A stretch of 43,778 nt of DNA from Verrucomicrobiota bacterium. Lineage in GTDB: Bacteria > Verrucomicrobiota > Verrucomicrobiia > Palsa-1439. A program made the position numbers and the translations under genes. The stretch spans positions 37,868 through 81,645 of the forward strand of contig PLZV01000059.1 of NCBI GenBank assembly GCA_003152315.1, written 5' to 3'. Under the pieces are notes generated by a model. That model was not told the DNA's origin and ran no database searches. It saw only the letters and a program-made list of their open reading frames with translations. Below, piece after piece: positions 6,585-39,808 of the stretch. Positions within the stretch are counted from its first letter, which is position 1; every line of letters begins with the position of its first letter.

Positions 6585-6592
6585 AGCAAGCC

Positions 6593-8824: not shown

Positions 8825-8871
8825 ATGGAACGTAAGCTGCTTAAAAGGGGTCTTAGGAAGGACGGTGGTTT

Positions 8872-9279: not shown

Positions 9280-9416
9280 CGCATGGAAGAGGATTACGGA
9301 GAATCGGCGGTGATGACGGTGGCAGCGTGGGTTTCCACGGCGCTGCTTAACTTTAGAGTAATGGACAGGAACCTGGATGGTTGCGGCGGTGAACCAAACC
9401 GCCTGGTATTCTGACG

Positions 9417-21920: not shown

Positions 21921-23705
21921 ATGATAAAAGACGTCACGATGCGTTTTCTTCTGGGCGGTGTGGCCTTCCTTGTAGCCTCCGGCTTTCCGGCAGTTACTAC
22001 AGCCCAAACCAGAACCCTGCGGATCGTTACCTACAACATAGAAGATGACATTAGCGGCGCCACCGTTCCGCTGCCTGGCCTGATTGCTCCCTCCGGCGGA
22101 AGTGTGACAAACGGCGGTGTGCTCGAAGGGATTGGAGAAGAGATCCTGGGTAGCGACCCGGCACAACCGCTCGACATCCTGGCTTTGCAAGAGACGACCA
22201 GTAACGGGACGACGGTCCAGCCGATTGTGAACGGGTTGAACGCTTTCTATTTATCCCGTAACATCCCCGCCGGATATGCAATGAGCACCGTGCAGGGGAC
22301 GGAAAGCGGCGGCGACACCGCCGATGGAAACGGCCCCAACGCCATCGTCTACAATACGAATACCGTGCAGCTTATCGCCTCCGTCCCGGTCGATCCATCG
22401 GGCGGCACCAGTAAGCTGGGTTCCGCTAGTGGCGAATATCGCGAGGTGATGCGGTACGAGTTTGCACCAGCTGGCGTTACTCCGACTACGAACAATGAGT
22501 TTTACATTTACGTGAGCCACTACAAGTCGGGCACGACTTCCGCCGACCTGACTGCTCGCACCGGCGAGTCGGGAATTATCCGGACCAACTCGGCGACATT
22601 GCCCAGCAATGCGCGGGTGCTCTACGTGGGTGACTTCAACGTCAGCACCAGTAGTGAGGTGTCATACCAAAACATCGTCGGCAGTACACTGGTCGGGATT
22701 CAAGGGATCGACCCATTCAACACTAATGGCACCACCGGCATCAATTGGGCCAACGGCAGCCAGTTGGCCGTGAAAACGGAATCAGCCACCGATCTCCACT
22801 ACCGGGATGATTTTCAAGTGGTATCCAGCAATGTATTTGCCGGTGCGGCCGGCGGATTGGCGTTGGTTTCGGGAACGTATCACACCTTTGGCAACAATGG
22901 CACAACCCCTTACCAGGGCAGTGTGAATTCCGGTAATACCTCGCTGAACAGCGATCTCACGACGAATGTCACGGGGATCAGTGCGACGCAGCTTTACCAG
23001 TACCTGACCACTGCCAGCGATCATTTGCCCGTAGTGGCCGATTACACGATCCCGGTTCCCTCCTCCGCGCCAGTGGCCAGTTTCACCGGTAGCCCGGTCA
23101 GCGGCGTGGCCCCGCTCGCCGTGACCTTCACGGACACGTCCAGCGGCAGCATCACGAATTGGTCCTGGAACTTTGGCGACGGCGGCACGACCAATCTTGC
23201 GACCAACACCGTGCTCTACACGTACAGCACTGCCGGTGTCTACAGCGTGACGGAAACTGTCAGCGGTTCCGGTGGATCGGGCACCAACACCCAGGTGAAT
23301 TACATTGCGGTGTTGACGCCATTCCAAGCCTGGCAGATACAGTACTTCGGTAGCACTACCAACCCGGCGGCGGCATCGGGCGCTGATCCGGACGGTGACG
23401 GCCAGAATAATCTGGCAGAGTTCCTGGCGGGCACCATCCCGACCAACAGCGCCTCGGGCTTGCGCATCACTTCGATCACCGCTCAAGGTAGCGACGTCCA
23501 GGTGACCTGGGCTACGGCCGGCGGTCAGACGGACGTGGTGCAAGCGACCGCCGGCTTGCTGGACGGTTCCTATTCGACCAACTTCCTTGACCTAAGCCCG
23601 TTGATCATCATCTCGGGCAGCGGCGACGCGATCACCAATTACCTCGACAATGGCGGAGCCACCAACGTCCCAGGTCGTTACTACCGCGTGCGTATGCAGC
23701 CTTGA
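21921..23705 (+). CDS. Secreted endonuclease/exonuclease/phosphatase-fold protein with PKD domain
   Basis: 594 residues. The signal peptide (about 1-28) ends near TTAQT. The EEP catalytic domain spans about 30-375 with the family motifs in order: RIVTYNIEDD (Asn), ALQETTSNG (catalytic Glu), YVSHYKSG, YVGDFNVST (Asp-x-Asn) and the terminal SDHLPVVADY (Ser-Asp-His). It could be an extracellular nuclease or phosphodiesterase for nucleic-acid or phosphate scavenging. A PKD domain follows (about 383-465; NWSWNFGDGG), then a Ca-binding-like DPDGDGQNNLAEF motif and a beta tail ending GRYYRVRMQP. That last module of about 120 residues is shared with the broken gene downstream and resembles the C-terminal tails of many verrucomicrobial secreted proteins. 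Confidence 0.82.
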   Translation: MIKDVTMRFLLGGVAFLVASGFPAVTTAQTRTLRIVTYNIEDDISGATVPLPGLIAPSGGSVTNGGVLEGIGEEILGSDPAQPLDILALQETTSNGTTVQPIVNGLNAFYLSRNIPAGYAMSTVQGTESGGDTADGNGPNAIVYNTNTVQLIASVPVDPSGGTSKLGSASGEYREVMRYEFAPAGVTPTTNNEFYIYVSHYKSGTTSADLTARTGESGIIRTNSATLPSNARVLYVGDFNVSTSSEVSYQNIVGSTLVGIQGIDPFNTNGTTGINWANGSQLAVKTESATDLHYRDDFQVVSSNVFAGAAGGLALVSGTYHTFGNNGTTPYQGSVNSGNTSLNSDLTTNVTGISATQLYQYLTTASDHLPVVADYTIPVPSSAPVASFTGSPVSGVAPLAVTFTDTSSGSITNWSWNFGDGGTTNLATNTVLYTYSTAGVYSVTETVSGSGGSGTNTQVNYIAVLTPFQAWQIQYFGSTTNPAAASGADPDGDGQNNLAEFLAGTIPTNSASGLRITSITAQGSDVQVTWATAGGQTDVVQATAGLLDGSYSTNFLDLSPLIIISGSGDAITNYLDNGGATNVPGRYYRVRMQP

Positions 23706-23980
23706 TTGAGGGTCACCCGCCACCGCCATCACCAGCCCAAAAGGCCCGAATTTGCTCGACTTTCTCGCGGTGCTTTGGTCTAGTTCCATGCTGGAGAAGC
23801 GAATCGGCTGGCGTCACGATGCGTTTGCTCAATGGCGTTCCTCCAGGGTCGCAGGGCACAATGACGTTCTAAGAATGCATCGCGCGGGTCGCAGCGTAAA
23901 GCGGTCAATCCCAACACCACGCTACAGGCCTACCCACACCACGAATCCAAACTCGTGCCGCCTCTGAAGGAGAAGCCAGT

Positions 23981-25514
23981 ATGAATACCAGAATCCTAGC
24001 CGCCATCACACTTGGCATCGCGCTGACCCTTACCGCTCGCGCTCAGACCACCAACAGTTGGACCGGCGGCAACGACAAATGGGAATCGACCAATAACTGG
24101 TCGGGTTTGGTCGCACCATCGACGACCGACTCGGCCGACCTCATCACCAACGCGGGCAACAACACCGTCACCATCGATAATGCCACGCCCTCCGCGAATC
24201 TGACCATCAATAACCTCACTCTCAACGCCAACACGCTGCAACTAACCAACCCCGGCACCAACTCGACACTACACATCCTGAATCAGTTGACGCTCAACAC
24301 CGGTGCCACGTTCATCAATCTCGGCGGTACGCTCCTCGTTACCGGTCCGGCACAGGTCAACTAGGGCACGATGAGCTTCACGGGCGGTACGAATCAGATG
24401 GATTCAACCTTCATCGTCGCCAGCACTGCCAATTCCACCGGCACGGTTAGCCTCACTGGCGGGTCGTTTTTTGTTACCAGCAGCACTTTCAGTATCGGCA
24501 ACGACGGTACGGTGGGTGGCACCGGCGGCGTGGCCAATGTGACGGTGTCGGGCGGCCTGTTGCAGGCGGCCAGCATTTTGGTCGGAGACAACTCTTCTGG
24601 CAGCGCCAGTAGTTTCAACATCTCCAGCAATGGTGAGGTGATGGTGCAAGGCGGTTTGCGCGTCAACGGCAACCATCAACGGTGGCACGCTGGTAGTGAC
24701 GGTCGGGCCACCGCCGCCGTTTGAAGACGCCATCCTGAATAACCGTATCGTGGTCGCCTATGGGGCCGACGGCACGATGCTCGTGTCCAACGGCGCGGTC
24801 CGAACTCCGGCGCTGGTGCTCGGTGTCAACGCCGGCAACACCGGCACGCTGGAGTTATCCGGCGGCAGCGCCAGTGTGTTCTCGAACATGACCGTCGGTT
24901 TAGGGGGGTGCGCGTCGACGGGGATCGTCAATGTGACGGGCGGTAGTTTGTACGTGACCAACGGCGGCACGGCTGTACTGGAAGTTCGCAGCGGGACCTT
25001 CACGCTCAGCGCGGGCACGGTGGTAGTGGACAAGCTGGTGGTCACCAACGCGTGCGCGCGCCTGGTGCGCACCGGCGGTACGTTGGTGTACAGCCAACTG
25101 GTGCTCGACCCGAACCTGAGCGCCGTGGGTGACGGGATTCGGAACGCCTGGAAGCAGCAATACGGGCTGGATCCGTTCAACCCCAACCTGGCCAACGCGG
25201 ATGCCGACGGGGACGGGATGAGCAACCTGCAGGAGTTCCTGGCCGGCACCGACCCAACCAACAGCGCGTCGACATTTCGTATTACCAGCTTGACGCGCAC
25301 CGGCAGTAACGTCGCGGTCACGTGGACCATGGGCAGCGGCAAGACCAACGCATTGCAGCGGACCGCCGGGACCGGCAATGGAAGTTACCAGACGAACAAT
25401 TTCGCGGACCTGTTCATAGTCACCAACACCTTGAGAACGGTGACCAACTATCTGGACGTGGGCGGCGCGACCAACACCCCCGCCCGCTACTATCGCGTGC
25501 GGCTGGTGCCGTAG
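23981..25514 (+). pseudogene. Autotransporter-like beta-helix surface protein, broken by amber codon and frameshift
   Basis: Preceded by AAGGAGA. A signal peptide (MNTRILAAITLGIALTLTARA) and Asn/Thr-rich beta-helix repeats (NSWTGGNDKWESTNNWSG) run to a TAG at 24362-24364. The same frame resumes immediately (GTMSFTGGTNQ...) to 24724. From about 24670 the true continuation is one frame over: reading GTCAACGGC, skipping one A, then ACCATCAAC gives VNG-TINGGTLVVTV, which joins smoothly to the frame ending at 25514. Repaired, this would be one protein of about 510 residues with GxxxVTxGxL beta-helix repeats, a DADGDGMSNLQEF motif and the RYYRVRLVP tail. The TAG could derive from CAG (Gln). Genuine decay or a sequencing error are both possible. 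Confidence 0.75.
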
Positions 25515-25517
25515 GAG

Positions 25518-28448
25518 TTGCGGTTGTTGCCGGGGTTCGCGGTGGGTAATTGTAGAGTTGCCGCGGCTGGTGTTACCGGCTATAGTAAACGTCTCGTGCG
25601 AGTCTCGGGTTATGTAGTGGGGGTTGGGCTGGTGGTGGCGAGCGTTGCGCTTTCATTGCCGTCGTCGTACGCCATCTTGTTTAAATCGACCGCTGATCCC
25701 ACGTATAACACCACCGCGCCGAGTGGCACGCTCACCAATAGCGGCTGGCAATATGAAGGTTCCTGGGGAAGTTTTCTTGGCACGCCTGTCGCCCCGCTGT
25801 TTTTTATTGCGGCACATCATATTGGAGGCACAACGGGGGACGTATTCGTGCTGAATGGATTTACCTATCACACCACGGCGGTCTTCGACGATCCCAACAG
25901 CGATTTGCGGATGTGGCAGGTGGCGGAGACCTTTCCGAGTTACGCGCCGCTCTATACCAGCGTCGATGAAGTCGGCAAACACTACGTTGTGTTTGGTCGC
26001 GGCACGCAGCGCGGTCCGGCGGTCATCGTCAGCGGCGCGACCAACGGCTGGCAGTGGGGTGCCAGCGATGGCATCGAGCGCTGGGGCGAGAACGATGTGG
26101 CCACCACCGTCACCGGCGGGGCGACGTTGGGGGATTTTCTGAACGCGACATTCGACCGCGGCGCCAACTCGAACGAATGCGATTTCTCCGTCGGGGATTC
26201 GAGCGGCGCGATGTTCATCCAAAACAGCGGTGTGTGGCAACTCGCGGGCATTAACTACGCCGTCGACGGCCCGTTCAGCAACGCGGTGGATGGCACGATG
26301 TTTGAAGCGGCGTTGCTCGACCGCGGCGGATTGTTCCAGCTCAACGGCACCAACTGGACGTTTATCACCAATACCGGCGCGGACAGTCCGAGCGGGTTTT
26401 ACAGCACGCGCGTTTCCTCACACATCGGTTGGATCGATGGCGTCATCAGTAGCAATAGTCCCGTTGCGCCCGTCGCCAGTTTCGACGCGACGCCGACCTC
26501 TGCGGCGTGGCCGTTGACCGTGACGTTCACGGATACGTCTACGGGCACGGTTACGGATCGGTTCTGGAGTTTTGGTGACGGCGCAACCACGAATACGATC
26601 GCCAATATCCTGACGCACACGTATATCGGGCCGGGTGCCAACACCGTGACACTGATCGTCAGCGGGCCGGCCGGCGTCAGTACGAATGCACAAGCCAACC
26701 TCATTGTCGTGGTCAATCCGCCGCAGCTGTTGGTCCAGCCAACCAGCGCCGCTTACGGCTTTGTGGCGGTCGGCCAGACTAGCAATCAACAATTCCTCGT
26801 GATCAATGCCGGCGACGAGACGTTGATTGGAACCGCGCAGGTCAATAGCGTGGGCAGTCCTTTTGCCGTCACCAGCGGCAGTCCGTTCAGCGTGGGCGGT
26901 GGGCAGACCGGGCTGGTGAGCGTGAGTTTCAGTCCCGTGGCCACCGGTGCGTTTACCGACTCGGTTGCATTCGCCAGCAACGGCGGCGGCTCAACCAATG
27001 CCGTGACCGGTTCCGGCGCACTCGCGCCGACCGCCGGCCTTACCGGGGCCCCGACCAACGGCGCAGCGACGTTGCTGGTGAACTTCACGGATGCCTCCAG
27101 CGGAACGGTGACAAGTAGTGTGTGGGCTTTTGGTGACGGTGGCACGAGCACCCTGACCAGCCCGAGCCACTCCTACACCAATGCGGGCACTTTCTCGGTG
27201 AGCTTGACGGTGTTGGGCCCACTCGGGTCGAACACACTGCTGCTTGCGAACTATATTACGGTCACCAACGTGTTTGGTCGCCCCGTGGCCGCGTTTACCG
27301 CCAGTCCGACGAATGGCGCCGCGCCGTTGCTGGTGAACTTCACCGATGCTTCGACCGGCACGATCACGAACCACTCGTGGAACTTCGGCGACGGCAATAC
27401 GAGCGCGGCCGCCAGCCCAAGTCACTCCTACTCCATGGCCGGCGTCTATTCCGTGGCGTTGACGGTTCTGGGCCCCGGTGGGTCTGGCGCAACCAACCAA
27501 GTGAACCTGATTACCGTAACGAATGTGGTGAACGCACCGCCGACGGTGAGCATTGCTCGGCCGGCCAATGGCATGCTATATCCGCCGCTGACCAATCTGA
27601 CGATTACTATTGTCGCCAATGCCACGGCCAACGACGGTGGGACCATTAGCAAGATTGAGTTCTTTGCAGACGGCATAAAACTCGGGGAGACCACGTCCAA
27701 CCCGGGGACAAACTTCCTGGTCCATCCCACGCTCGGTGCTCACATCATTAGCGCGCGCGCGAGTGACTCGCTGGGCCTGACGAACATCTCTGCGGGCGCG
27801 ACGGTCACCATCGGTGCCAAGAACTCGCAATTGGGTGATTGGGAAGTCACGATCAGCGGCGCTGACAAAGGAGCGCAGTTCCTGACCTTCGAGGATGACT
27901 TCAGTGCCAGCGGCTTTGGGATCCGGTTCAAGACCTTTGGGCTCGACGACGTGTCGGGTCACTGGGGGTTCACGAATAAGCCGACGGGACAGGTGACGGG
28001 ACCGTTTATCGAGCAGACCGGCACCACGACGAATTGGACCGGCACATTCCTGGGGCCGGTGAAGAGCCTCAAGAGTATCAGCGGGGCGGTGAAAACCACC
28101 GCCTTGGGCACCTTCCACTGGAGGGGTGTGCCGGCTACGACATTCCCGGATCTGAGCGGCACATGGACCGGACTGGTGACAGTGGTTCGGACAACGCCGG
28201 CGACGGTGAGTTTCGTGTTCAGTCCCAACGCCAACGATTCAGCGGTCTTCGACGTCGCGACGAGCGGGGATCCGGGCACGGTGGTGGGACAGTTGCTGGT
28301 GACGTCACACAACAAGGCTTTTGCTTACGTCACGGCTGACGGCAAACAGCTCCGATTGTCAGGCACCTTCAACGCGCTACGCCGAACGCTGACGTTGCGG
28401 GGCACGGATGCAACTGCCGAGAGGGTCACCGTCAAGATTTCGAAATAA
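25518..28448 (+). CDS. Secreted trypsin-like serine protease with PKD and HYDIN-like domains
   Basis: 976 residues from TTG at 25518; a GTG at 25596 would place the hydrophobic signal (YVVGVGLVVASVALSLPSS) closer to the N-terminus and may be the real start. Peptidase S1-like domain about 55-300: His100 (FIAAHH), Asp129 (NSDLRMW), Ser228 in GDSSGAMF (canonical GDSGG changed to GDSSG). Then PKD 1 (about 315-400; FWSFGDGA), an ASPM/SPD-2/Hydin-like domain (about 404-500; SAAYGFVAVGQTSNQQF), PKD 2 and PKD 3 (about 503-675; VWAFGDGG, SWNFGDGN), a bacterial Ig-like domain (VSIARPANG...IEFFADG) and a C-terminal beta region. Thr/Ser/Asn-rich throughout, typical of large secreted Verrucomicrobiota proteins. 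It follows the broken gene by 3 bases. Confidence 0.75.
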   Translation: MRLLPGFAVGNCRVAAAGVTGYSKRLVRVSGYVVGVGLVVASVALSLPSSYAILFKSTADPTYNTTAPSGTLTNSGWQYEGSWGSFLGTPVAPLFFIAAHHIGGTTGDVFVLNGFTYHTTAVFDDPNSDLRMWQVAETFPSYAPLYTSVDEVGKHYVVFGRGTQRGPAVIVSGATNGWQWGASDGIERWGENDVATTVTGGATLGDFLNATFDRGANSNECDFSVGDSSGAMFIQNSGVWQLAGINYAVDGPFSNAVDGTMFEAALLDRGGLFQLNGTNWTFITNTGADSPSGFYSTRVSSHIGWIDGVISSNSPVAPVASFDATPTSAAWPLTVTFTDTSTGTVTDRFWSFGDGATTNTIANILTHTYIGPGANTVTLIVSGPAGVSTNAQANLIVVVNPPQLLVQPTSAAYGFVAVGQTSNQQFLVINAGDETLIGTAQVNSVGSPFAVTSGSPFSVGGGQTGLVSVSFSPVATGAFTDSVAFASNGGGSTNAVTGSGALAPTAGLTGAPTNGAATLLVNFTDASSGTVTSSVWAFGDGGTSTLTSPSHSYTNAGTFSVSLTVLGPLGSNTLLLANYITVTNVFGRPVAAFTASPTNGAAPLLVNFTDASTGTITNHSWNFGDGNTSAAASPSHSYSMAGVYSVALTVLGPGGSGATNQVNLITVTNVVNAPPTVSIARPANGMLYPPLTNLTITIVANATANDGGTISKIEFFADGIKLGETTSNPGTNFLVHPTLGAHIISARASDSLGLTNISAGATVTIGAKNSQLGDWEVTISGADKGAQFLTFEDDFSASGFGIRFKTFGLDDVSGHWGFTNKPTGQVTGPFIEQTGTTTNWTGTFLGPVKSLKSISGAVKTTALGTFHWRGVPATTFPDLSGTWTGLVTVVRTTPATVSFVFSPNANDSAVFDVATSGDPGTVVGQLLVTSHNKAFAYVTADGKQLRLSGTFNALRRTLTLRGTDATAERVTVKISK

Positions 28449-29998: not shown

Positions 29999-31711
29999 AT
30001 GTCTACCCAAGTTGTAGAATTCCCTTCCCACGAGCGGTCCCATACGGAAGTCAATATAGTCCACATGATTGGGATTGCGACGGCTTGTGCAATCATTTGG
30101 TTTATTCTATTGGGGCTCACGCCGATTTCCAAAGCTAACTTCGTACGCGACCTGTTTCTCGGCTCCGAATCGAAGAATGGCGTGCTGGTGCACCCCTACC
30201 TGATCGAACGCGTCATCTTCCAAGGTTTGATAAGTTGGGTGTTTGCTCTATCCATGGGCAACATCGCTCTAAAGTTTCAGCGAATGAACAAAGAACGCGC
30301 CGCGATTGAAGACGCGGGATTACCTGAAGATCTCGACATGAGCGACAACGAGCGGCTCATTGAGGTTTACAATCGCGTGAAAGAGCGTCCCAACCTTATC
30401 GAGAGTGTTGGCCTCACGCGCGTTTCGCGCGTATTGGGCATGTGGATTAACACGGGCGATTTTGAGCGTACCACCGAATATGCACGCGAACAGGCTGACA
30501 TGGATGCGGCTGCTTCCGATTCATCTTTCCGACGAAATCGACTATTCATCTGGGCGATGCCGCTCTTGGGGTTCGTCGGCACGGTGTATGGTGTGGCGGC
30601 GGGCATCAGTGGTTTCGCCGCGTTCTTGACGGGCGCGAATGTGACAACGGAAGCGATCACGGGACAGATCGGCACGATCACCGAAGGCCTCGCAGTGGCG
30701 TTCATGTGCACGCTCTTGGGCTTGCTAACCGCCGGGCTGGCGGCGTTTCCGAGTTTGATGGTCGAGCGCAAGGAAGAAGAGGTTCTCGGCGAGATCGAAG
30801 AACTGGTCGAGGATCGCCTGCTCTCGCGGATGCCGTCGGCGGAAGTGCAGAAGGCGTTCCCCGTGGACGAGATGGTCGCCGCGATTCGCCAGGGGATGGA
30901 GGGCCTGCAGACGCAGTCGAAATTCCCCGTGGAAGAACTGGCCCAGGCCATCGATGCCGGTTTCCGTCGGTTGCCCAATCCCGACCGGTATGAGGAAGTA
31001 TTTTCGCGCGCGATTTCCAAGGCGGGAGACGTGATCAATCAAAAGTACGACGAATTTGCCCAGAATTACGAGCGCCGCATCAACGAGTTGGGTTCCCAGC
31101 TCGGCGGGAAGCTGGAAGGTGTGGCCAGCAACTTCAACAACGGCACGCAGCGCATCATGTCGGAACTCACCAAGACACAAGAGCGCAATCTGGAAATTTA
31201 CACGAAGAACGAACAGAAACTGGCGGACAACTTCGACGACTTGACGGAGCGGTTCACCCGGATCGCCAGGGAGCAGTCCGAGCAGTTTGGTGAGGCGCAC
31301 GAGAAGTACGTCGGCGCCATCCAGGAATTGGACAAGAAGGAAATTGCCCGCTTTGAGAAAATGGTGCAGGAGTTCAGCCAGCTTTCCACGCGACTGGCCG
31401 AATCATTCCGTCAAGCCGTTTCGTCTCTGGAGAGCGCGTCCACGCGCTACAGTGAGCGCATGCAACAGTCCGTCGGGTCGCTTAATGAGCAACTCGAGAA
31501 AGTCACCCAATTGGGTGCGGAGATCGACAAGGTGTTGCGGACTACGCAGGCAATGGAGGCGACCTTGCGACAGATGGGCAGTTCGGATGAATTCCGGCAG
31601 ACGCTGGCGAACCTCCGCAGTCACTTGAGTACGAGCGATGAATTGCTCAAGCAGCTCTCGCGTCCGCGCAAGGTCGTCTTCCAGGAAGCGCGCGGCGAAG
31701 ACGGAGTGTGA
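29999..31711 (+). CDS. MotA/TolQ/ExbB-like channel with long C-terminal helical tail
   Basis: 570 residues. Transmembrane segments are at about 20-43 (MIGIATACAIIWFILLGL), 72-92, 181-210 (FIWAMPLLGFVGTVYGVAAG) and 228-253 (LAVAFMCTLLGLLTAGLAAF), with a cytoplasmic loop (about 95-178) between TM2 and TM3. The last two helices carry the family's pore signature (PLLGFLGTVxG; TEGLxxAFxxTxxGL). About 310 residues of helical, coiled-coil-like tail follow (RINELGSQLGGKLEGVASNF, RFEKMVQEFSQL, SSLESASTRYSERM). Four helices plus a long tail recall ZorA or MotA more than TolQ. AGGAG precedes the ATG. Two ExbD-like genes follow directly, as expected for a proton- or sodium-driven stator complex. Confidence 0.85.
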   Translation: MSTQVVEFPSHERSHTEVNIVHMIGIATACAIIWFILLGLTPISKANFVRDLFLGSESKNGVLVHPYLIERVIFQGLISWVFALSMGNIALKFQRMNKERAAIEDAGLPEDLDMSDNERLIEVYNRVKERPNLIESVGLTRVSRVLGMWINTGDFERTTEYAREQADMDAAASDSSFRRNRLFIWAMPLLGFVGTVYGVAAGISGFAAFLTGANVTTEAITGQIGTITEGLAVAFMCTLLGLLTAGLAAFPSLMVERKEEEVLGEIEELVEDRLLSRMPSAEVQKAFPVDEMVAAIRQGMEGLQTQSKFPVEELAQAIDAGFRRLPNPDRYEEVFSRAISKAGDVINQKYDEFAQNYERRINELGSQLGGKLEGVASNFNNGTQRIMSELTKTQERNLEIYTKNEQKLADNFDDLTERFTRIAREQSEQFGEAHEKYVGAIQELDKKEIARFEKMVQEFSQLSTRLAESFRQAVSSLESASTRYSERMQQSVGSLNEQLEKVTQLGAEIDKVLRTTQAMEATLRQMGSSDEFRQTLANLRSHLSTSDELLKQLSRPRKVVFQEARGEDGV

Positions 31712-31756
31712 ACATGCGGAAGGTAATGGCACCCGTTAGGCAGGAACGCTGATTCC

Positions 31757-32254
31757 ATGGCGCGTCGCAAGCCATATGAAAAGATCGACATCAATGTCGA
31801 GCCCTTCCTGTCCATCATGGCGATCGTGCTGAAATTGATTTCCTTGATTCTCGTGGTGATCGTAATGCGCATTGCTGTCAACCCGAAGGGCAAACGCATT
31901 ATCGCGTTCGCCGGACTGTACTCCGGGCACAATAACGTAACGAACCCAAAGGTCCCTTCGTATATTGATTGCCAGCAAGACAAACTGGTGTTGTATCCCG
32001 GTGAAGTCAAGGTTGCCTGGGAAGATCTGCAACAGTCGGGGAATCCGGTTGAGAAACTGTTGGACAAAGTGCAGGCCCACAAGGATGACGAGTATGTTGT
32101 GGTCATGGTGCGACCGCGGTCGGTGAAGCTCTATCGTACGGTCCGCAATTTGATCGGGAAGCGGCCGATAGAGGTTGGCTACGATGCCATAGACGCTGAT
32201 TTCAAAGTTGATTGGAACGAGGCGGAAAAGGGCCTGGCTATTTCCACGGATTGA
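31757..32254 (+). CDS. ExbD/TolR-like protein lacking the intramembrane Asp
   Basis: 165 residues. Short basic N-terminus (MARRKPYEKIDINVEPF), one transmembrane helix (about 17-38, FLSIMAIVLKLISLILVVIV) and a periplasmic domain ending with VVVMVRPRSVKLYRTVRNLIG, which echoes the C-terminal 'v.i..d..v.y..v...+' strand-helix of ExbD/TolR. In TolR and ExbD the helix begins NVxPFIDxM, whose Asp is the proton-carrying residue. Here the matching stretch is NVEPFLSIM, so Ser19 sits where Asp is expected. 45 bases downstream of the channel gene. Role inferred: non-conducting partner of the next protein. Confidence 0.6.
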   Translation: MARRKPYEKIDINVEPFLSIMAIVLKLISLILVVIVMRIAVNPKGKRIIAFAGLYSGHNNVTNPKVPSYIDCQQDKLVLYPGEVKVAWEDLQQSGNPVEKLLDKVQAHKDDEYVVVMVRPRSVKLYRTVRNLIGKRPIEVGYDAIDADFKVDWNEAEKGLAISTD

Positions 32255-32259
32255 TCGAC

Positions 32260-32901
32260 ATGGCGAGGCGAAGAAGAAAGAAGAAGGCCGAGTTCGAGAT
32301 GCTTATCATTTCGTTCTGTGATATTATTACCATCTCGACGGCCGCTCTGCTCCTGGCTCTCTTCGTCACGGTGCAACTGGCCATCAAGATACCTGTTTTC
32401 AGACCGACGCCGCGTTCCGCTCCATCCTCAAAACAAGCTTTCTTCTTCGAGTGTCGAAACGACCACCTGTTCTTTGTCGACAAGGCTGGCCTGGATGAGC
32501 AGGTCGAGGAGTTGATGTCAAAATTGAATTCCGGGGTCCGCGGCGGAGATCTTGGGTCCTTTCAAAAAGCCATTCAAGGGCAAGAGGTTGGGAATCCCTA
32601 CTACAAAGTCGATCCGCGCTATTTGCTTGTGGGTCGAATGGTATTGGAGACTCGCGCGGGTACTTCCGGAGAAGGGGCCGGCGACCTGGAGAATCCCAAC
32701 AGCAAGTACCAGGCGATGCTGTCCCTATTGGATAAGGACAAGCAATACATTGCGTTTTTGGTCAGGGATGATAGTTTTAACGTGTTTCGCAAGGCCCGCC
32801 AGGTGGCGGACAGCTTGGGCCTCGATACGGGCTGGGAATTGCTCGGCATCGATGAACAAATCAACTTTGGCGAAGGCGGAATCGCGATAGGCACGCAGTA
32901 G
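32260..32901 (+). CDS. ExbD/TolR-like protein with intramembrane Asp
   Basis: 213 residues from ATG at 32260, 5 bases after the previous stop (an earlier in-frame start at 32212 would overlap that gene). Very basic N-terminus (MARRRRKKKAEFEM), one transmembrane helix (about 15-37, LIISFCDIITISTAALLLALFV) with Asp21 at the position of the essential Asp of TolR/ExbD, then a periplasmic domain (FFFECRNDHLFFVDKAGLDEQV ... YIAFLVRDDSFNVFRKARQVADSLGLDTGWELL). The last part has the strand-helix-strand pattern of ExbD and of the preceding protein. The pair would give a heteromeric rod within the channel (inference). Confidence 0.65.
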   Translation: MARRRRKKKAEFEMLIISFCDIITISTAALLLALFVTVQLAIKIPVFRPTPRSAPSSKQAFFFECRNDHLFFVDKAGLDEQVEELMSKLNSGVRGGDLGSFQKAIQGQEVGNPYYKVDPRYLLVGRMVLETRAGTSGEGAGDLENPNSKYQAMLSLLDKDKQYIAFLVRDDSFNVFRKARQVADSLGLDTGWELLGIDEQINFGEGGIAIGTQ

Positions 32902-32911
32902 GACCAGTCTT

Positions 32912-33937
32912 ATGGCCGGGAGCAACGGGAAGAACACGCGAGGAAAGGGATTAAAGGCCAACGTTATCGTTTGGGCGCTGCTGGCCGCCCTGCTATTGGC
33001 TGCGGGGGTCCTGGCTCTTAACGTAACCCAGCGATTCCGTCGCGTTGTTCTGGAGACGAATCAAGTCCGCACGGTCGTTCAGGAGGCCGTCCGGCGGCAG
33101 GAAATGATCGTCCGGGCACCGGCGCGCAAGGAATTCTCCGCCGCGTTTCTCCAAATGGCTTTTGGAGACAATCCCCAGCTTCTGGAGCAAATCAAGGAGT
33201 CTCTCGGCAAGGCCCTTGGCAACAATCCCGCGCTTGCCCAGGGCGACGTCGCCATGATGCTGGTTACCTATCGCGCGGAAGGTGAACTGCGCGATGTGGC
33301 GATCCACATCTTCGGGAACCTGGTGCCGGAGAAGCTGCCTGCGTTCAGTTCGGAGGGCTACTGGAAGTCTCAACTTCCCGACAATTTTTACAAGATGGGC
33401 CAATCCATGCTGTCCACGCTGGGGCGCGAGGTCGTCATCCTCGCCAGCCCTGAAGCCGAGAAACGACAGCGAGAACTGCTGGAAGCCGTGCTGAACGATC
33501 GTTACGAGAGCGTTCAGAACTACCTCCACGACCCGGTTTCATTTATTGCCGTGATTCCCGAGCCGGGCCTGCTGTTTACGGATCGTTTCCGGCCCTATAT
33601 GGCGGCGGCTTTGGTAAAAGGCAAGATCTCCATGGACGAAGCGCGCGTGGAGATGGTGGCTCTCAGCTTCGATCCGAAGAAAGCCCAGGAGTTGGCGCAG
33701 TTGTTGTCCGACACGCGGATAATGGGCGTGGGTATGGCCCGCGTGAGATTTGACAGTCCGGAGGCCGAGACCGCACTCCAGCAGTTATCCCGGGCTCAAA
33801 TTGTGGCGGACGGTCCGGCGGTGAAAATGAGCGCCATGATACCCTCCGAAGTGATCGAAAGAGGTCTGCCGAGACTCATTCGCGCTCTCGCGAAGGGTGT
33901 CGGGCGAATACAACGCGGACCGGGCTACCCCAGTTGA
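32912..33937 (+). CDS. Unrecognised envelope protein, paralogue of the one at 36139
   Basis: 341 residues, 10 bases after the second ExbD-like gene. Single N-terminal transmembrane helix (about 18-39, ANVIVWALLAALLLAAGVLAL), a probable coiled stretch (RFRRVVLETNQVRTVVQEAV), then about 270 periplasmic residues: MMLVTYRAEGELRDVAIHIF, GREVVILASPEAEKRQREL, LHDPVSFIAVIPEPGLLF, a helical region with FDPKKAQELAQLL, and KMSAMIPSEVI near the end. The same order of elements is found in the protein at 36139-37311. I do not recognise the family. Gene order places it with the channel, and its topology (helix in the inner membrane, bulk outside) would suit a partner of the ExbD-like pair. Confidence 0.65.
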   Translation: MAGSNGKNTRGKGLKANVIVWALLAALLLAAGVLALNVTQRFRRVVLETNQVRTVVQEAVRRQEMIVRAPARKEFSAAFLQMAFGDNPQLLEQIKESLGKALGNNPALAQGDVAMMLVTYRAEGELRDVAIHIFGNLVPEKLPAFSSEGYWKSQLPDNFYKMGQSMLSTLGREVVILASPEAEKRQRELLEAVLNDRYESVQNYLHDPVSFIAVIPEPGLLFTDRFRPYMAAALVKGKISMDEARVEMVALSFDPKKAQELAQLLSDTRIMGVGMARVRFDSPEAETALQQLSRAQIVADGPAVKMSAMIPSEVIERGLPRLIRALAKGVGRIQRGPGYPS

Positions 33938-33965
33938 TCGCTTCTGCGCACCACGGAGCATACCG

Positions 33966-35903
33966 GTGAGGAAGATCACGACACAGCGAGTCAGATGTTG
34001 GCTGGTCAGTTTGTTGAGCATTTTTGTGTTGTTGCCCCCGTCACATGGGCAACAGGTAGCATCGCCGCCCGCTGACTGCGGACTCGAGGTTGCGTACCAG
34101 CGCCTTCACTTTGACCGTCTCTATCCACCCGCAGCCGTTTCCTACATCCAGGGTAAGTTGCAAACCGCCCCGCGTGCCGTGGATATCCTGGCTGACCTGG
34201 CAAAGGACCAGCGCAGCGAAGTGCGGGTCTTGGTGGCGACGTTGCTGGGTGAACTTGGCGATCCGGATGGCGGCAAGATCCTGTGGCTTATGACCCGCGA
34301 CGAAGCGGAGCCGGTCCGCATCGCCGCCGCGGGAGGGCTGACGCGGCTGTCGCAGTTGACGCCCGTGGCCATTTCCGCGGACGGCTTGAAGGACGAACGG
34401 CCTGACGTGCGGCGGCTAACGGCGGCGACGCTACGGCAATTCGCGGATCCATCCGCGGAGCCGGAATTGATTGAGACCGTCCGGGATCCAGACGATCTGG
34501 TGCGAATGGAAGTCATCAGCGCGTTGGCCGTGTGTGGAACCAGCGCTTCGGTTCCGTCGCTCGGGGAGGCGTTGCGCGACAAGAACGCGCTCGTGCGGAC
34601 TGCTGCAGCCAGCGCCCTGGCGCATTTCGACGGCGCCTATTCGATTCCTGTACTGATCAAGGCCTTGGATGACGCGGACTGGCACGTCCGCGCCACGGCG
34701 ATCATGTCATTGTCGTCAACGGCGGGGGACCAAAAGGGTCGCGTCGCCCTGATTGTTGACCCCATCGCGGCCAAGCTTCAGAATGATCCGTACGCCCTCG
34801 TTCGTGACCGTGCCGCTGACGCGTTGGCCCACCCCGATGATGAAAGAGCCATCGCAGCGCTGGTTCACGCCATTGTCTCCGACGACCGCGAGGCCCGATT
34901 GCATGCCCATGAGGGGATCATCCGCAGTCGAGCCGTCTCGGCGTTACCGAGGCTGACCGAGTACCTGCACCATCCCAACCGCGATGTCCGCGAGAAAATC
35001 ATCCGCATCTTTGGGGAGATTGGCGGCAGCGAGCAATTTCCCGCAGTTATCGGAGCGTTAAACGACCCGGATCCCGTGGTTCGTCTCGCCGCAGTCCAGG
35101 CGCTCCGCCGACTGCGGGGAGAAGGGTTGGTTGAAGCGCTGGAGGACAGGTGCCGCGACGCCGATGCCAACGTGCGGGCGGAATCGGCCCGCACACTCGG
35201 CAATCTTGGGGAGCGGAAGGCGTTGTCGAAATTGGTGGATCTGCTTCGTGATTCCAACGGTTTCGTTCGTGCTGCCGCAGCCGAGGCGCTGGGCAAGCTG
35301 GGCGATCGGAGCGCGACAGCGGCTTTGATCGAGGTCCTCACGGGCGACAAGAGGGCGACGGCGCAGGCGTCCGAACAGGACGGTTTGGTCATCGGGACGC
35401 AGCCAGGCCCGCTGACGGAAATTGCCAGGATGAAGATGGTCGAGGAGAAGATCATCGCCGCCAAGGCCCTGGGCGACATTCGCGATCCCGCGTCGGTTGA
35501 CTCGCTGATCGAACGTGGCTTGAAGGCGGAAGATGCCGGGTTGCGGGCGGAGTCAGCGGTATCACTGGGCAAGATCGGTGAGCCGCGCGCCACCGAACCG
35601 CTGGAGGCGGCCGTGCGTCCCTACTACGAAGCGGCGCCGACGGACACCGAAGGCGTCACGATTGCCACGGGGCCAATCGATGAAAAGGTGCGCCTCATGA
35701 AGGAGAAGGAGTCTCGCGTTCGCGCCTCGGTTGCGTGGGCGCTTGGGCAGATTGGCGATGTCAACGCGAAGGAAATTCTCCTGCGCTCGATGAATGACGA
35801 GAACAGCCTGGTGCGCGATGCAGCCGCCGAGGCGTTGGCCAAAATCACGGAAAAGGAAGAGCGGATTGCGGTGGGCGCCGCGAATCAACCCGTGATTCAT
35901 TGA
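33966..35903 (+). CDS. Secreted HEAT-repeat protein (large)
   Basis: 645 residues from GTG at 33966, chosen because GGAG stands 7 bases ahead, it opens into a signal peptide (MRKITTQRVRCWLVSLLSIFVLLPPSHG), and it avoids overlap with the preceding gene (frame open from 33897). The mature protein is nearly all HEAT/PBS-lyase-type repeats of about 31 residues with the consensus 'D.+..VR..AA.ALG.+GD..A...L...L.D': for example DDLVRMEVISALAVCG, NALVRTAAASALAHF, NGFVRAAAAEALGKLGD, NSLVRDAAAEALAKI. These form a curved alpha-solenoid for protein binding, here in the periplasm. A loop region (about 480-500) interrupts the array. No catalytic motif. Likely a scaffold for the channel complex. Confidence 0.85.
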   Translation: MRKITTQRVRCWLVSLLSIFVLLPPSHGQQVASPPADCGLEVAYQRLHFDRLYPPAAVSYIQGKLQTAPRAVDILADLAKDQRSEVRVLVATLLGELGDPDGGKILWLMTRDEAEPVRIAAAGGLTRLSQLTPVAISADGLKDERPDVRRLTAATLRQFADPSAEPELIETVRDPDDLVRMEVISALAVCGTSASVPSLGEALRDKNALVRTAAASALAHFDGAYSIPVLIKALDDADWHVRATAIMSLSSTAGDQKGRVALIVDPIAAKLQNDPYALVRDRAADALAHPDDERAIAALVHAIVSDDREARLHAHEGIIRSRAVSALPRLTEYLHHPNRDVREKIIRIFGEIGGSEQFPAVIGALNDPDPVVRLAAVQALRRLRGEGLVEALEDRCRDADANVRAESARTLGNLGERKALSKLVDLLRDSNGFVRAAAAEALGKLGDRSATAALIEVLTGDKRATAQASEQDGLVIGTQPGPLTEIARMKMVEEKIIAAKALGDIRDPASVDSLIERGLKAEDAGLRAESAVSLGKIGEPRATEPLEAAVRPYYEAAPTDTEGVTIATGPIDEKVRLMKEKESRVRASVAWALGQIGDVNAKEILLRSMNDENSLVRDAAAEALAKITEKEERIAVGAANQPVIH

Positions 35904-35963
35904 ACCGGGTTGGCATTCGGTTCGTCCAGTTTCGTCCCATGGTCGTCTCATCAAGACAGGGAT

Positions 35964-35991
35964 TTGACATCACGCGACGTTGGCCTATCTT
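35964..35991 (+). promoter_or_regulatory. Strong candidate sigma70 promoter inside the channel cluster
   Basis: TTGACA (35964-35969), 16 bases, TATCTT (35986-35991): a perfect -35 and a good -10. It lies in the 235-base gap after the large HEAT gene and about 145 bases before the ATG at 36139, so the last two genes could be expressed separately from the first five. The remaining leader holds no gene. Confidence 0.5.
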
Positions 35992-36138
35992 TAACGGGCG
36001 TTGGATTCACGGAAAGAATTCCTGAAACTGGTCTGTTTCTGGCAGAATCGTGGTCTTTCCGTGGAGCCATGATCGAGGTCTCGGGAGTGAGAATCCTTAG
36101 CCACGGCTGGCACCGAACTTGCATATTTGAAAAGGGCC

Positions 36139-37311
36139 ATGAATAAAAAGATCGCTCGTTACCGAGGGCTCACACTCGATCCGCGGTTTGTTTCTCGCAG
36201 TTCAGCCATCGGTTTGGCGCTTTCCTTCGCTTCACTTTGTCTGGCGGCAACCTTGGCGCCGAATTCCGTAGTCCCCTCTCCGAATCCGGTGGTGACTGCG
36301 GTTCCCGTGACGTCGCATGCCGTCAATCAGCCCTCCCGCCACACCGCCGCGCTGGCTCCCGCTCAGTACAGCGAGTGTCTGCAGTTGTTGGGGGGAACCG
36401 ATCATGTCAGTCCCGTACTTGTGGACACTGTCTCCTCACTGCTGAATCATCCGTCCGAGGCGTCTCCGATTGTACCGCAGACCCAACCGTCGTTGATGGT
36501 CGTCAGTTACCACGAACAGGCCGGAGAGGCGCGTGACATCGTTGTGCAGATTTTCTTTGATCCCATCGCCGGGGGACAGAACGTGCTGAACGATGCCGGC
36601 TACGTTCACGCCCGGTTGGGAGACGAGCTGTCGGGTTCCGCCGATCAGCTTCTGGGACTGATGTTCCGTCAGGTGGCTTACTTCGGGCAGAAGAACGAAG
36701 TCGAGCGCCAACAACGGGCCTTTCAGGCGATGTTGAATGGCGACATGACGCTGTTGCGGGAGCAGACAATTGACCCCTTGCACGTCCTCGTGGTGATGCC
36801 GCACGGCGGCACGTTCCTGCCCACCAGCCTTCGCTCGCGTGTGCGTGGCATGGTGGTGGACGCCGAACTGGCTTTTGGCACGTGGAGCGGTCGCATTGGG
36901 ATGGTGACCGATGATAACGAAGCTGCGGAGCAAGTGGGTAACATCGTTGCCGCCTGGCGCGAAATGGCCATGTCCTTTGCCGACACGTTCGCCAGCCACA
37001 GTTCCGGCAAGCAACTCCGTGAATCGCTGAAATCGAGCACGGTCCAGGTCGCGGCCAATCGCGTACTGGCTTCCGCTTCGGTTGATTCACGCACGATCGT
37101 TCGCACGTCCAAGGAAATCACCGGCCACGGCGGGGGCTGTCCGCCGGGAGGTGCTTGCTCGAAAGACAAGGTGGCGATCTGCCATAAAGTCGATAGCCGG
37201 CACGAACAAACGTTGTGCGTGGCGCCGGCCGCAGTTGCAGCTCATCTGGCTGCTGGCGATCATTGTGGCCCCTGCGCGGGTGATGATGGTGGCGGCCACG
37301 GTAGACCATAA
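36139..37311 (+). CDS. Unrecognised envelope protein with C-terminal cysteine motif, paralogue of the one at 32912
   Basis: 390 residues from the ATG at 36139. A hydrophobic signal or anchor (about 20-40, SAIGLALSFASLCLAATLA) and a Pro/Val linker come first. The domain shared with 32912-33937 follows: LMVVSYHEQAGEARDIVVQI, FRQVAYFGQKNEVERQQRAF, IDPLHVLVVMPHGGTF, a helical part with AWREMAMSFADTF, then STVQVAANRVLASASVDS. The C-terminal extension is Gly/Cys-rich: CPPGGACSKDKVAICHK, then VAPAAVAAHLAAGDHCGPC. That resembles the 'KVtICH...AVaAHLahGD.lGpC' motif seen at the ends of other secreted bacterial proteins and probably holds disulfides or a metal. The paralogue lacks this tail. Confidence 0.65.
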   Translation: MNKKIARYRGLTLDPRFVSRSSAIGLALSFASLCLAATLAPNSVVPSPNPVVTAVPVTSHAVNQPSRHTAALAPAQYSECLQLLGGTDHVSPVLVDTVSSLLNHPSEASPIVPQTQPSLMVVSYHEQAGEARDIVVQIFFDPIAGGQNVLNDAGYVHARLGDELSGSADQLLGLMFRQVAYFGQKNEVERQQRAFQAMLNGDMTLLREQTIDPLHVLVVMPHGGTFLPTSLRSRVRGMVVDAELAFGTWSGRIGMVTDDNEAAEQVGNIVAAWREMAMSFADTFASHSSGKQLRESLKSSTVQVAANRVLASASVDSRTIVRTSKEITGHGGGCPPGGACSKDKVAICHKVDSRHEQTLCVAPAAVAAHLAAGDHCGPCAGDDGGGHGRP

Positions 37312-37402
37312 GAACGACGGCTGCGCCAATAGTCTTCACAAAAGATCGTTTTCCGGGTAGTAGAAACTGCGTTCATGTCAGGCAGCCTGTCTGGGGGGAA
37401 GG

Positions 37403-38470
37403 ATGCAAGACGACATCTGGGCCGGAATGAAGGAGGCAAAACCACTGAAATTTCCTCACGTCTTCCGCCTCTGGCTGCTTTTGTGGGCGCTTCCGGGTTT
37501 CTGTCTGGCGCAGGTTCCAAAGCCGACGCAGGCGGAGACCGACAAAAAGTTTGAGCGACTGGGGCGTTGGCTGAAATCACCGGACGAGAGTGTTCGCGTG
37601 GATGCCATCCAGGAACTCACTACGATTCACGACCCCGCCGCCGTCCCGTTGATCTTGCAGTGCCTTCAGGACACGAATACGGCGATACGCGGCGCCGCTG
37701 CGTGGAGCCTCCTGCTTTACCGCGGTCCGCAAGTCGTCAGCGCGCTGCGGCCGGTGTTGAACGACGAGGATGACCGCGTGCGGGCCTCCGCCGTCTGGTC
37801 GCTGAGCCACGTCGGCGGCAGGGCGGTCCTGCCGGATGTCGTCCGGCTGGCCACCAACGATGCCTCGGGAGTTGTTCGCTTCCGCGCCGTCTGGGGACTG
37901 GCGTTCTGCGGCGACAAATCAACGCTGCCCATTGTCGTCGATGCGCTGGGGGACTACAATAACGCCGTCCGCGAGCGTTCCGCGTTGCTGGCTCTCGATG
38001 CGTTGGCTGATAAATCCGTGCTACCCCTGTTACTCAAGCAGCGGCACAATATCCTCCCCGCCACGCGCCGCGTTGTCATGTATCTGCTGGCCAAGTACGG
38101 TGACGGCTCCATCATCCCCGGGCTTGTCGAAGGGCTTCAGGACCCGGATGCGCTGGTGCGCGCTGAGGCGGCGACCTCACTCGGGAAACTTCGCGCTCGC
38201 AAGAACCTGGATGCGCTGCAGCCATTGCTCAAAGACCCTGATGACCACGTGCGCGGCTCCACGGCCTACGCCATCGGCTTGATGGGCGACCCAGCGGGCC
38301 TCGCGCTGCTGCGCTCCTTGTCGCAGGACAACAGCGCGTTTGTGCGCGCCGTTGCGCCCGAGTCGTTGCAGAAGTTGGGGGACAAGACGGCCAAACCGCC
38401 GGAGGGCTTCAAAGCTGCCGAGCTATTTACCTTCCCGATCTACAGCCCCGAGCAGAAAGACCTTTACTAG
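37403..38470 (+). CDS. HEAT-repeat protein (small), probably exported
   Basis: 355 residues from ATG at 37403 with GGGGGGAAGG ahead. The N-terminus (MQDDIWAGMKEAKPLKF) is unusually polar before a hydrophobic stretch (about 22-36, LWLLLWALPGFCLAQ) that looks like a signal-peptide core; a later in-frame start (ATG, 37427) would make a neater signal. The mature part holds about eight HEAT repeats: ESVRVDAIQELTTI, NTAIRGAAAWSLL, DDRVRASAVWSLSHVGG, ALVRAEAATSLGKL, DDHVRGSTAYAIGLMGD. It is similar in style to the larger HEAT protein and closes the cluster. Its stop overlaps the convergent lpxA stop by 4 bases. Confidence 0.82.
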   Translation: MQDDIWAGMKEAKPLKFPHVFRLWLLLWALPGFCLAQVPKPTQAETDKKFERLGRWLKSPDESVRVDAIQELTTIHDPAAVPLILQCLQDTNTAIRGAAAWSLLLYRGPQVVSALRPVLNDEDDRVRASAVWSLSHVGGRAVLPDVVRLATNDASGVVRFRAVWGLAFCGDKSTLPIVVDALGDYNNAVRERSALLALDALADKSVLPLLLKQRHNILPATRRVVMYLLAKYGDGSIIPGLVEGLQDPDALVRAEAATSLGKLRARKNLDALQPLLKDPDDHVRGSTAYAIGLMGDPAGLALLRSLSQDNSAFVRAVAPESLQKLGDKTAKPPEGFKAAELFTFPIYSPEQKDLY

Positions 38471-39279
38471 TCCTCCGTCTGGTGAGCCGAAACCGAGGCC
38501 CGCGCCGGCGGACAAATCCCCTTCGGCGAATTCCGCACGAACTCGATGAACTCCCGCGCCTCGGCGGTTCTGTATGTACTGTCCGCTGACGCTTCCTGTA
38601 GCGCTTGCGTGCCGTTCACACCCGAGAGATAGAACAACTGATAAAGTCGCTTGAGTTCCGCAATCGCTTCGCGTGAAATCTTCATCCGCCGCAGTCCCAC
38701 CAGGTTCAGCGCATGAATCTCGTTGCGTTCCGCCTCAAGGGTGAACGGCGGCACGTTCATCGAGATGCGCGCGTTGCCCGAGCACATCGCCAACCGCCCG
38801 ATGTGCGTGAACTGGTGAACGACCGCGCCGCCAGAAATAATCGCGTAGTCGTCGACACGCACATGACCCGCCAGCAATACGGAATTGACGATGATCACGT
38901 TGTTACCGACCACGCAGTTGTGCCCCACATGCGCATTGGCCATCAGGTAGCAATCGTTGCCGATGATCGTCGCGCTCTCCGGCCCCGTCCCGCGATGCAC
39001 CGTGCAATATTCGCGAAATACGTTGCGGTCGCCGATTTTCAAATAACTGCGGCACGTACGGTCGAACTTCAAATCCTGCGGTTCGTGCCCGATCACCGCG
39101 CCCATGTGGATTTGATTGTCCCGCCCGATCTCCGTGTGCCCCGTCAGGTACGCATTCGCCCAAATCCGCGTCCCCGCACCAATCTTCACATGCTCCTCGA
39201 TGATCACATTCGGCCCCACCTCGACCGATGAATCGAGTTCCGCCTTCGGGTTCACAATCGCTGTCGCATGAATCGCCAT
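38467..39279 (-). CDS. lpxA: Acyl-ACP:UDP-N-acetylglucosamine O-acyltransferase
   Basis: 270 residues from MAIHATAIVNPKAELDSS; the start at 39279 matches the family N-terminus, while the longer frame runs through a hairpin repeat. First step of lipid A synthesis. Left-handed beta-helix of hexapeptide repeats (VEVGPNVIIEEHVKIGAGTRIWANAYL..., IGRDNQIHMGAVIGHEPQDLKF), catalytic His in NAHVGHNCVVGN, and a helical C-terminal domain (NLVGLRRMKISREAIAELKRLYQLF). QDLKF and the RNVFREYCTVHRGT block are typical of LpxA. Length is the family's usual 262-275. Its presence with hldA shows a lipopolysaccharide-making outer membrane. Confidence 0.93.
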   Translation of the reverse strand: MAIHATAIVNPKAELDSSVEVGPNVIIEEHVKIGAGTRIWANAYLTGHTEIGRDNQIHMGAVIGHEPQDLKFDRTCRSYLKIGDRNVFREYCTVHRGTGPESATIIGNDCYLMANAHVGHNCVVGNNVIIVNSVLLAGHVRVDDYAIISGGAVVHQFTHIGRLAMCSGNARISMNVPPFTLEAERNEIHALNLVGLRRMKISREAIAELKRLYQLFYLSGVNGTQALQEASADSTYRTAEAREFIEFVRNSPKGICPPARASVSAHQTED

Positions 39280-39300
39280 GTCGGGAATATACTGTTGTAG

Positions 39301-39321
39301 CGGCGCTTCTGTGAAGCGCCG
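39301..39321. repeat. Small hairpin between MOSC and lpxA genes
   Basis: CGGCGCTTC-TGT-GAAGCGCCG, a 9-bp perfect stem with a 3-base loop, directly preceded by GTAG. It lies in the 70-base gap between the MOSC stop and the lpxA start. No T-run follows on either strand. It may be a member of the same small repeat class as 13105-13123, or it may affect mRNA stability in this operon. Confidence 0.4.
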
Positions 39322-39349
39322 AATCTGCCAGGCCATTCTGGTACGCGTC

Positions 39350-39808
39350 TCAGAGAACTTGGATTGGATCACCAGCGCGGATCAGGCCGGCCTTCACCAC
39401 GCGGACGCAAATACCGCCGCGTCCGCCCGCCAGCGCGCGTGTCATGCCGGGTTCGGTGATGGTCTCGACGTAATGGCAGGGCGGGCGAGGTCGGTCGTAC
39501 TCCAGCGTGGCCTCGCCGATGGTGAACCTTTTGCCCGCGAGGTCGTGCAGCCGGATGCCACGCGTGACGATGTTGCGACGATGTTCGCCTTGGGCAACCT
39601 GGATACCCGTCTCCCGTAAAATATCATCCAGCGCCTCACCTTCGATCAACGTGACCTCACACTCGTCCACGCCGGAATAGTAGCCGACACGCATTTGATA
39701 TCGATCTCCCAAGAGACCTCCATCCACGACGGCTTCGACTTGCTCCACCGTCTGCATCATCGCGCCGCCTTGCGCCGTGACAAAAATCTTTTCCACGACT
39801 CCTTGCAT
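39350..39808 (-). CDS. MOSC-domain protein
   Basis: 152 residues, one MOSC beta-barrel domain: GGLLGDRYQMRVG near the start, CEVTLIEGEALDDI, RRNIVTRGIRLHDLAGKRFTIGEATLEY and the conserved Cys in RPRPPCHYVE. MOSC domains bind or transfer sulfur for molybdenum-cofactor enzymes or related metal-sulfur chemistry; the small stand-alone forms (YiiM-like) reduce N-hydroxylated substrates with a molybdenum cofactor. Starts 3 bases after the aldo/keto reductase stop. No molybdopterin genes are near, so the substrate is unknown. Confidence 0.85.
   Translation of the reverse strand: MQGVVEKIFVTAQGGAMMQTVEQVEAVVDGGLLGDRYQMRVGYYSGVDECEVTLIEGEALDDILRETGIQVAQGEHRRNIVTRGIRLHDLAGKRFTIGEATLEYDRPRPPCHYVETITEPGMTRALAGGRGGICVRVVKAGLIRAGDPIQVL

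Follow-up and report, generated by a model that had tools for sequence, protein, structure and literature searches.

A conserved gene set of Verrucomicrobiota probably encodes an ion-driven envelope motor with the proton-binding residue on only one part of its axle

In MotB, ExbD, and TolR, the proton is carried by an aspartate residue in the helix (PMC9389320). AglRQS of Myxococcus consists of one TolQ-like channel and two TolR-like rods (PMC9389320, PMC3169522), of which AglQ and AglS both keep the aspartate (PMC9389320). The Planctomycetes-Verrucomicrobia-Chlamydiae (PVC) group has been reported to carry a TolQ-like gene with two TolR-like genes that differ from each other, along with genes for TPR proteins and vWA force transducers (PMC12204202, Mol Biol Evol 2025). 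We analysed a stretch of 43,778 nucleotides (the window; contig PLZV01000059.1, positions 37,868 to 81,645, or G000:C21:37868-81645) from the 4.9 Mb draft genome of a Verrucomicrobiota bacterium. Seven plus-strand genes at window positions 29999-38470, here called P1 to P7, include a conserved gene set that probably encodes an ion-driven envelope motor with the proton-binding residue on only one part of its axle. The original prediction had placed these seven genes there from the sequence alone, with gaps of 5-45 bases among the first five, and both the coordinates and the gaps are borne out (45, 5, 10, and about 28 bases from P1 to P5, then 223 and 91). It had read the products as a four-helix channel with a long tail, two single-helix ExbD-like rods, a pair of paralogous envelope proteins of which one is anchored, and HEAT proteins with export signals, and it had set the locus apart from the Zorya defence system; these assignments hold in the analysis below, that of the rods being weak by Pfam and fold.

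The two rods, P2 (31757-32254, plus strand, 165 residues) and P3 (32260-32901 from an ATG start, plus strand, 213 residues), each have a single helix. We aligned these helices from 109 channel-rod-rod sets, 88 of them distinct, from Verrucomicrobiota and their relatives; the sets are loci found with P1 and P3 queries, and the fractions derived from them are not population estimates. The helix aspartate is present in all 88 distinct second rods, corresponding to D21 of P3 in the window (codon 32320-32322, plus strand), and in 18 of the 88 distinct first rods. The other first rods have serine (45), asparagine (10), cysteine (8), alanine (6), or proline (1) at this place, which is occupied in the P2 of the window by S19 (codon 31811-31813, plus strand) and by serine in every P2 of the window's family. 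On the channel tree, a quick tree in which long branches were flagged, the first rod changed between the aspartate and non-aspartate states at least four times. Because a first rod without the aspartate is always kept beside a rod that has it, a mixed axle is suggested. Alternatively, P2 might lie outside the axle as a plug, a regulator, or a second, non-conducting partner of P1, with P3 homodimers driving the motor. The loss of the aspartate from P2 in most clades speaks for such an arrangement, as does the fact that a P3 homodimer would retain two aspartates like MotB and ExbD; however, P2 is kept beside P3 in 88/88 sets and has retained the rod architecture. We consider this explanation possible but rather improbable, and the aspartate pattern fits the mixed axle best when set against a P3 homodimer with P2 as its regulator. 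The same genome also has another channel gene (locus L002, G000:C23), followed by two ExbD-like genes and a gene for an exported protein; as read by eye, both rods of that locus have the aspartate at the helix place.

P2 and P3 themselves matched no Pfam family in the Pfam scan. Their profiles matched each other (hhalign 98.9%, E = 3e-17), which identifies them as paralogues. At E ≤ 0.1, the ExbD/TolR family PF02472 was touched by 5 of the 32 P3 homologues, with a best E-value of 0.0018. An AlphaFold2 (AF2) model of P3 had a mean confidence (pLDDT) of 86, and in VIA-align its first match was the periplasmic domain of ExbD (8pek; Z 4.9, r.m.s.d. 3.0 over 84 residues), with TolR (5by4) third at Z 4.2 and unrelated chains between the two and just below at similar Z-scores; Foldseek gave no match of this model in the Protein Data Bank (PDB) at E ≤ 0.001. 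The ExbD/TolR-like assignment, a weak one, is borne by the helix motif, the gene order, and the paralogy, and the fold supports it without proving it. Two other loci (L063:8239-9957 and L089:8276-9175) encode larger proteins with matches to the P3 and P2 profiles and no ordinary rod helix, and in the former the rod-type domain sits within a protein of 573 residues.

P1 (29999-31711, plus strand, 570 residues) is a member of the MotA/TolQ/ExbB channel superfamily. It has four hydrophobic helices (residues 20-38, 72-90, 182-200, and 231-249), followed in the window by a C-terminal tail of about 315-330 residues; across the family, the tail is 330-391 residues long. PF01618 (MotA_ExbB) matched residues 1-300 of P1 with 24.0 bits at a cut-off of 22.9, and 21 of 23 P1 homologues matched it at E ≤ 0.01. 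The third and fourth transmembrane (TM) helices contain the motifs PLLGFVGTV and GLAVAFMCT, in which T195 (codon 30581-30583, plus strand), invariant in 23 homologues, and T238 (codon 30710-30712, plus strand), conserved in at least 90%, align with threonine residues of canonical channels from the same genome. The six further PF01618 channels of this genome score far above P1, which is thus the divergent member. The nearest named relatives of P1, at 60-62% identity, come from metagenome-assembled genomes of Verrucomicrobia. Searches of the PDB sequences with the P1, P2, P3, or P4 profile returned no significant match.

The long tail of the channel raises the question of Zorya-type anti-phage defence, since the ZorA models of PADLOC match P1 at E = 2e-7. 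Nearly all of the matched sequence falls within the tail (residues 290-555), as is common for coiled-coil regions, and neither P2 nor P3 gave a match to an OmpA-type domain. PADLOC, NCBIfam, and Pfam gave no ZorC, ZorD, or ZorE among the seven proteins, and the set belongs to the core of the family, with recO and lpxA as neighbours, and not to a variable island. A defence function thus has hardly any probability, and we rejected the identity with Zorya on the position of the ZorA matches and on the lack of both an OmpA-type rod and effectors.

P4 (32912-33937, plus strand, 341 residues) has one N-terminal helix, presumably followed by a periplasmic domain, and matched no Pfam family. P6 (36127-37311, plus strand) has a signal-type N-terminus in place of this anchor; the profile match between the two (E = 2e-127) and their alignment identify P6 as a paralogue of P4 that is predicted to be secreted. 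The C-terminus of P6 (37130-37311) is a cysteine- and histidine-rich tail, ICH...TLCVAPAAVAAHLAAGDHCGPC, which is found in most P6 orthologues and is absent from P4. The AF2 model of P4 reached a pLDDT of 68, and its best VIA-align match, TP0453 with a Z-score of 5.1, is too weak to use; Foldseek found nothing for this model in the PDB at E ≤ 0.001. The DxSxS motif of vWA domains was not found in P4, and the P4 helix, in the window and in the seven other orthologues checked, has no histidine such as that in the SHLS motif of the TolA, TonB, and vWA force transducers.

We searched 387 other genomes of the phylum with the P4/P6 profile and found homologues in 20 of them (E = 1e-25 to 1e-48), and the P3 profile detected a close P3 subtype (E < 1e-60) in 22. 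Both were present in 18 genomes, only the P3 subtype in 4, only P4 in 2, and neither in 363. Fisher's test gave p = 3e-25 for this co-occurrence, or about 1e-8 when counted by family, a number that overstates the evidence because kinship is ignored and the carriers outside the window's family may form one lineage. P4 and the channel-rod-rod triad lie side by side in the window's family and are unlinked in distant genomes, which gives the joint occurrence some weight all the same. As judged by sequence comparison, P4 represents an undescribed family tied to this subtype of motor. At one locus, where P1 is about 50% identical to that of the window, a gene with an LppM domain (L099:6799-7641; PF21946, E = 8e-8) follows P3 in the place of P4.

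P5 (33966-35903, plus strand) and P7 (37403-38470, plus strand) are predicted to be exported HEAT-repeat proteins. Both matched HEAT_2 of Pfam (E = 2e-83 and 9e-53, respectively), and inspection by eye revealed hydrophobic signal-type N-termini in all ten P5 orthologues and signal-type N-termini in the P7 orthologues. The open reading frame (ORF) of P5 opens at 33897, and its start is probably the GTG at 33966. Since P4 and P6 are paralogues and P5 and P7 are both HEAT proteins, the P6-P7 pair might be a diverged copy of P4-P5. In distant genomes, P4 is followed by a different exported protein of about 440-500 residues that contains four to six repeats, each about 40 residues long, a pattern from which a resemblance to a TolB-type propeller might be drawn. 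This propeller-like family had no Pfam or PDB match above threshold, with one touch of PD40 at E = 0.11. None of the 11 genomes in the window's family contains it, and these have the HEAT genes instead.

Conservation of the genes together in relatives had been set as a test by the original prediction, and they are indeed conserved. Of the 11 family genomes, 10 contain P3 and the remaining one is 53% complete; all ten have P1-P2-P3-P4-P5 in the same order with short gaps, with P1 cut by a contig end at one locus. The arrangement of P1 to P5 is not due to chance. P6 and P7 follow in six of the nine family loci on contigs that reach far enough, and the other three stop at P5. More widely, searching genome contigs with the P1 alignment gave hundreds of relatives, the best 80 of which come from Verrucomicrobia, Kiritimatiellae, Lentisphaerae, and Planctomycetes; two rod genes follow the channel in nearly all P1 relatives, sometimes with one gene intervening. 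Gene calls at the compared loci still include a few spurious ORFs. The genes P4 to P7 could be merely co-transcribed with a motor that consists only of P1 to P3 and has other partners. P4 does not adjoin the triad in distant genomes, and the genes after the triad vary, as would suit such an accident of transcription; the syntenic P1-P5 block in 10 of the 11 genomes and its short gaps count against it, as does the continued co-occurrence of P4 where it is unlinked, and we consider it unlikely.

Upstream of the operon, DUF502 and recO are common to at least five loci. Downstream, an lpxA-like acyltransferase gene (38467-39372, minus strand; Hexapep and Acetyltransf_11 domains) converges on P7 in the window, and such a gene adjoins the last gene of the operon in the same convergent orientation in all nine family loci whose sequence extends far enough. 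At 11 distinct distant loci, fabZ-lpxA follows P3 immediately and in the same orientation. Hence, two distant groups have lpxA by the motor, each in its own arrangement. Other neighbours of sets near the window's subtype are fabZ-lpxA with gspD, gspE, and gspF, or a gene for an NHL-repeat protein that separates P1 from P2. At eight loci (L065, L067, L071-L073, L082, L084, and L086), the triad is directly followed by fabZ, lpxA, and the type II secretion genes gspD, gspE, and gspF, the gsp genes being annotated in L072 and assigned by homology at the others. Elsewhere in the window, three consecutive large hybrid sensor kinases (3543-12125; CHASE4/PAS/HisKA/receiver, PAS/HisKA/receiver, and HAMP/HisKA/two receivers/Hpt) and two long genes that encode PKD domains or PKD-like repeats (21921-28448) were found; one of the latter has an endonuclease/phosphatase domain, and the second (976 residues) was judged by eye only.

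We propose that the set encodes a trans-envelope motor that is driven by ions and belongs to the 5:2 type known from MotAB, ExbBD, TolQR, and ZorAB, with a mixed P2/P3 axle, a force path through P4 and the HEAT proteins, and a role in outer-membrane upkeep, and we assign a probability of roughly 0.55 to this proposal. P1 would form a ring in the inner membrane around a mixed axle of P2 and P3, in which only P3 would contribute a proton-binding aspartate. Ion flow would turn or shift the axle, the periplasmic domains of which would then move P4, anchored in the inner membrane. P4 in turn might act on the exported proteins P5 and P7, serving as flexible grips on partners in the outer membrane or the peptidoglycan. 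The likely service would be upkeep of the outer membrane, related to lipid A, alongside the cell's own Tol-Pal system. We infer the pentamer-plus-dimer stoichiometry, the heterodimer, the rotation, the force path, and the service; the features computed for the set are the protein families of P1 and, weakly, of P2 and P3, the aspartate pattern, the export signals, the synteny, the co-occurrence of P4, and the linkage to lpxA. The transmission of force to periplasmic HEAT scaffolds, as put in the original prediction, is not supported in that form, and the path drawn here is our own conjecture. Several points weigh against the proposal. The P4 helix has no histidine of the TolA/TonB type; the co-occurrence of P4 and the motor is confounded by shared descent, as the carriers outside the family may be a single lineage; the lpxA neighbourhood can be inherited without a shared function; and the match of the P3 model to the ExbD/TolR fold is weak, with a Z-score of 4.9 and no significant Foldseek match.

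The mechanism by which ion flow drives the axle in 5:2 motors is disputed, and present models are built on two equivalent aspartate sites. A natural and widespread motor family in which one rod keeps the aspartate and the other has repeatedly lost it would provide a convenient test of whether one site suffices. More tentatively, and with doubts of our own, we suggest a 5:1:1 motor with a heterodimeric axle and one proton site that steps unlike MotAB and ExbBD, in which P4 would serve as an adaptor to interchangeable periplasmic solenoids (HEAT or propeller-like) for the upkeep of lipid A or the outer membrane beside Tol-Pal. The P4 family with its exchangeable partners would show that a trans-envelope motor can reach the outer membrane without TonB, TolA, or vWA proteins. 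The original prediction had not included the missing aspartate of one rod, the joint occurrence of P4 and the motor in distant genomes, the propeller-like proteins that stand there in place of the HEAT proteins, or the neighbouring lpxA.

The same genome has a Tol-Pal system of its own, in which tolQ, tolR, a tolA-like gene, a tolB-like gene (by sequence reading only), and pal form a separate locus (G000:C33). The operon is therefore not the cell's Tol-Pal set. The only PF00691 match of the genome lies in that locus, TolB_N was not found in the genome, and the Pfam scan detected no TolB or Pal domain in the operon. Tol-Pal and the set described here share a channel, a rod, and an anchored single-helix protein, and the exported propeller-like protein of distant relatives recalls TolB, whereas the window operon has no Pal, no TolA-type domain, and no TolB_N match. 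ZorAB resembles the set in the long cytoplasmic C-terminal tail of its channel and differs from it in that the rods here have no peptidoglycan-binding OmpA-type domain and no effector genes accompany them. With ExbBD-TonB, the set shares the superfamily of the channel and rods, which might suggest an energiser of nutrient import; however, Pfam found neither a TonB-type C-terminal domain nor a receptor gene in the operon, and the two rods are unlike, with one aspartate between them. HEAT proteins have, to our knowledge, no part in Ton systems, and we consider an importer function very unlikely.

The layout of one channel with two unlike rods is that of AglRQS (PMC9389320, PMC3169522) and of the PVC set (PMC12204202), so that a motor for surface motility or adhesion, like AglRQS with its Glt partners or the PVC set with its TPR and vWA transducers, might be considered. 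AglRQS differs from the window set in the aspartate retained by both AglQ and AglS (PMC9389320) and in its partners, which are Glt proteins from other clusters; moreover, P4 lacks both the DxSxS motif and the helix histidine, and Pfam detected neither a Glt-type beta-barrel nor a TPR protein among the operon's products, which makes this explanation improbable. The PVC set comes from the same bacterial group and likewise has one channel followed by two unlike rods; it differs in its TPR and vWA genes, where the window operon has P4 and HEAT genes, no TPR gene, and a first rod without the aspartate. Its nearest look-alikes among our loci (L159, L161, and L169) have a short-tailed channel, a gene of about 1000 codons upstream, and the aspartate in both rods; the TPR gene of the published set was not confirmed in L159 by a Pfam match. 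The literature searched, which left most subscription papers uncovered, mentions neither P4 nor HEAT partners nor the single-aspartate pattern of the axle; it has no text that links HEAT repeats to such ExbBD motors and, apart from PMC12204202, none on TolR-like paralogues lacking the aspartate. The original prediction had called the machine uncharacterised, which stands in so far as the searched papers name no system with the full set, and fails for the motor core, already known because sets with paired TolR-like genes were reported from the PVC group in 2025 (PMC12204202). The single-aspartate axle and the P4/HEAT module are unreported in the papers searched, the paired-rod core is known, and the whole is a distinct putative form of a known machine.

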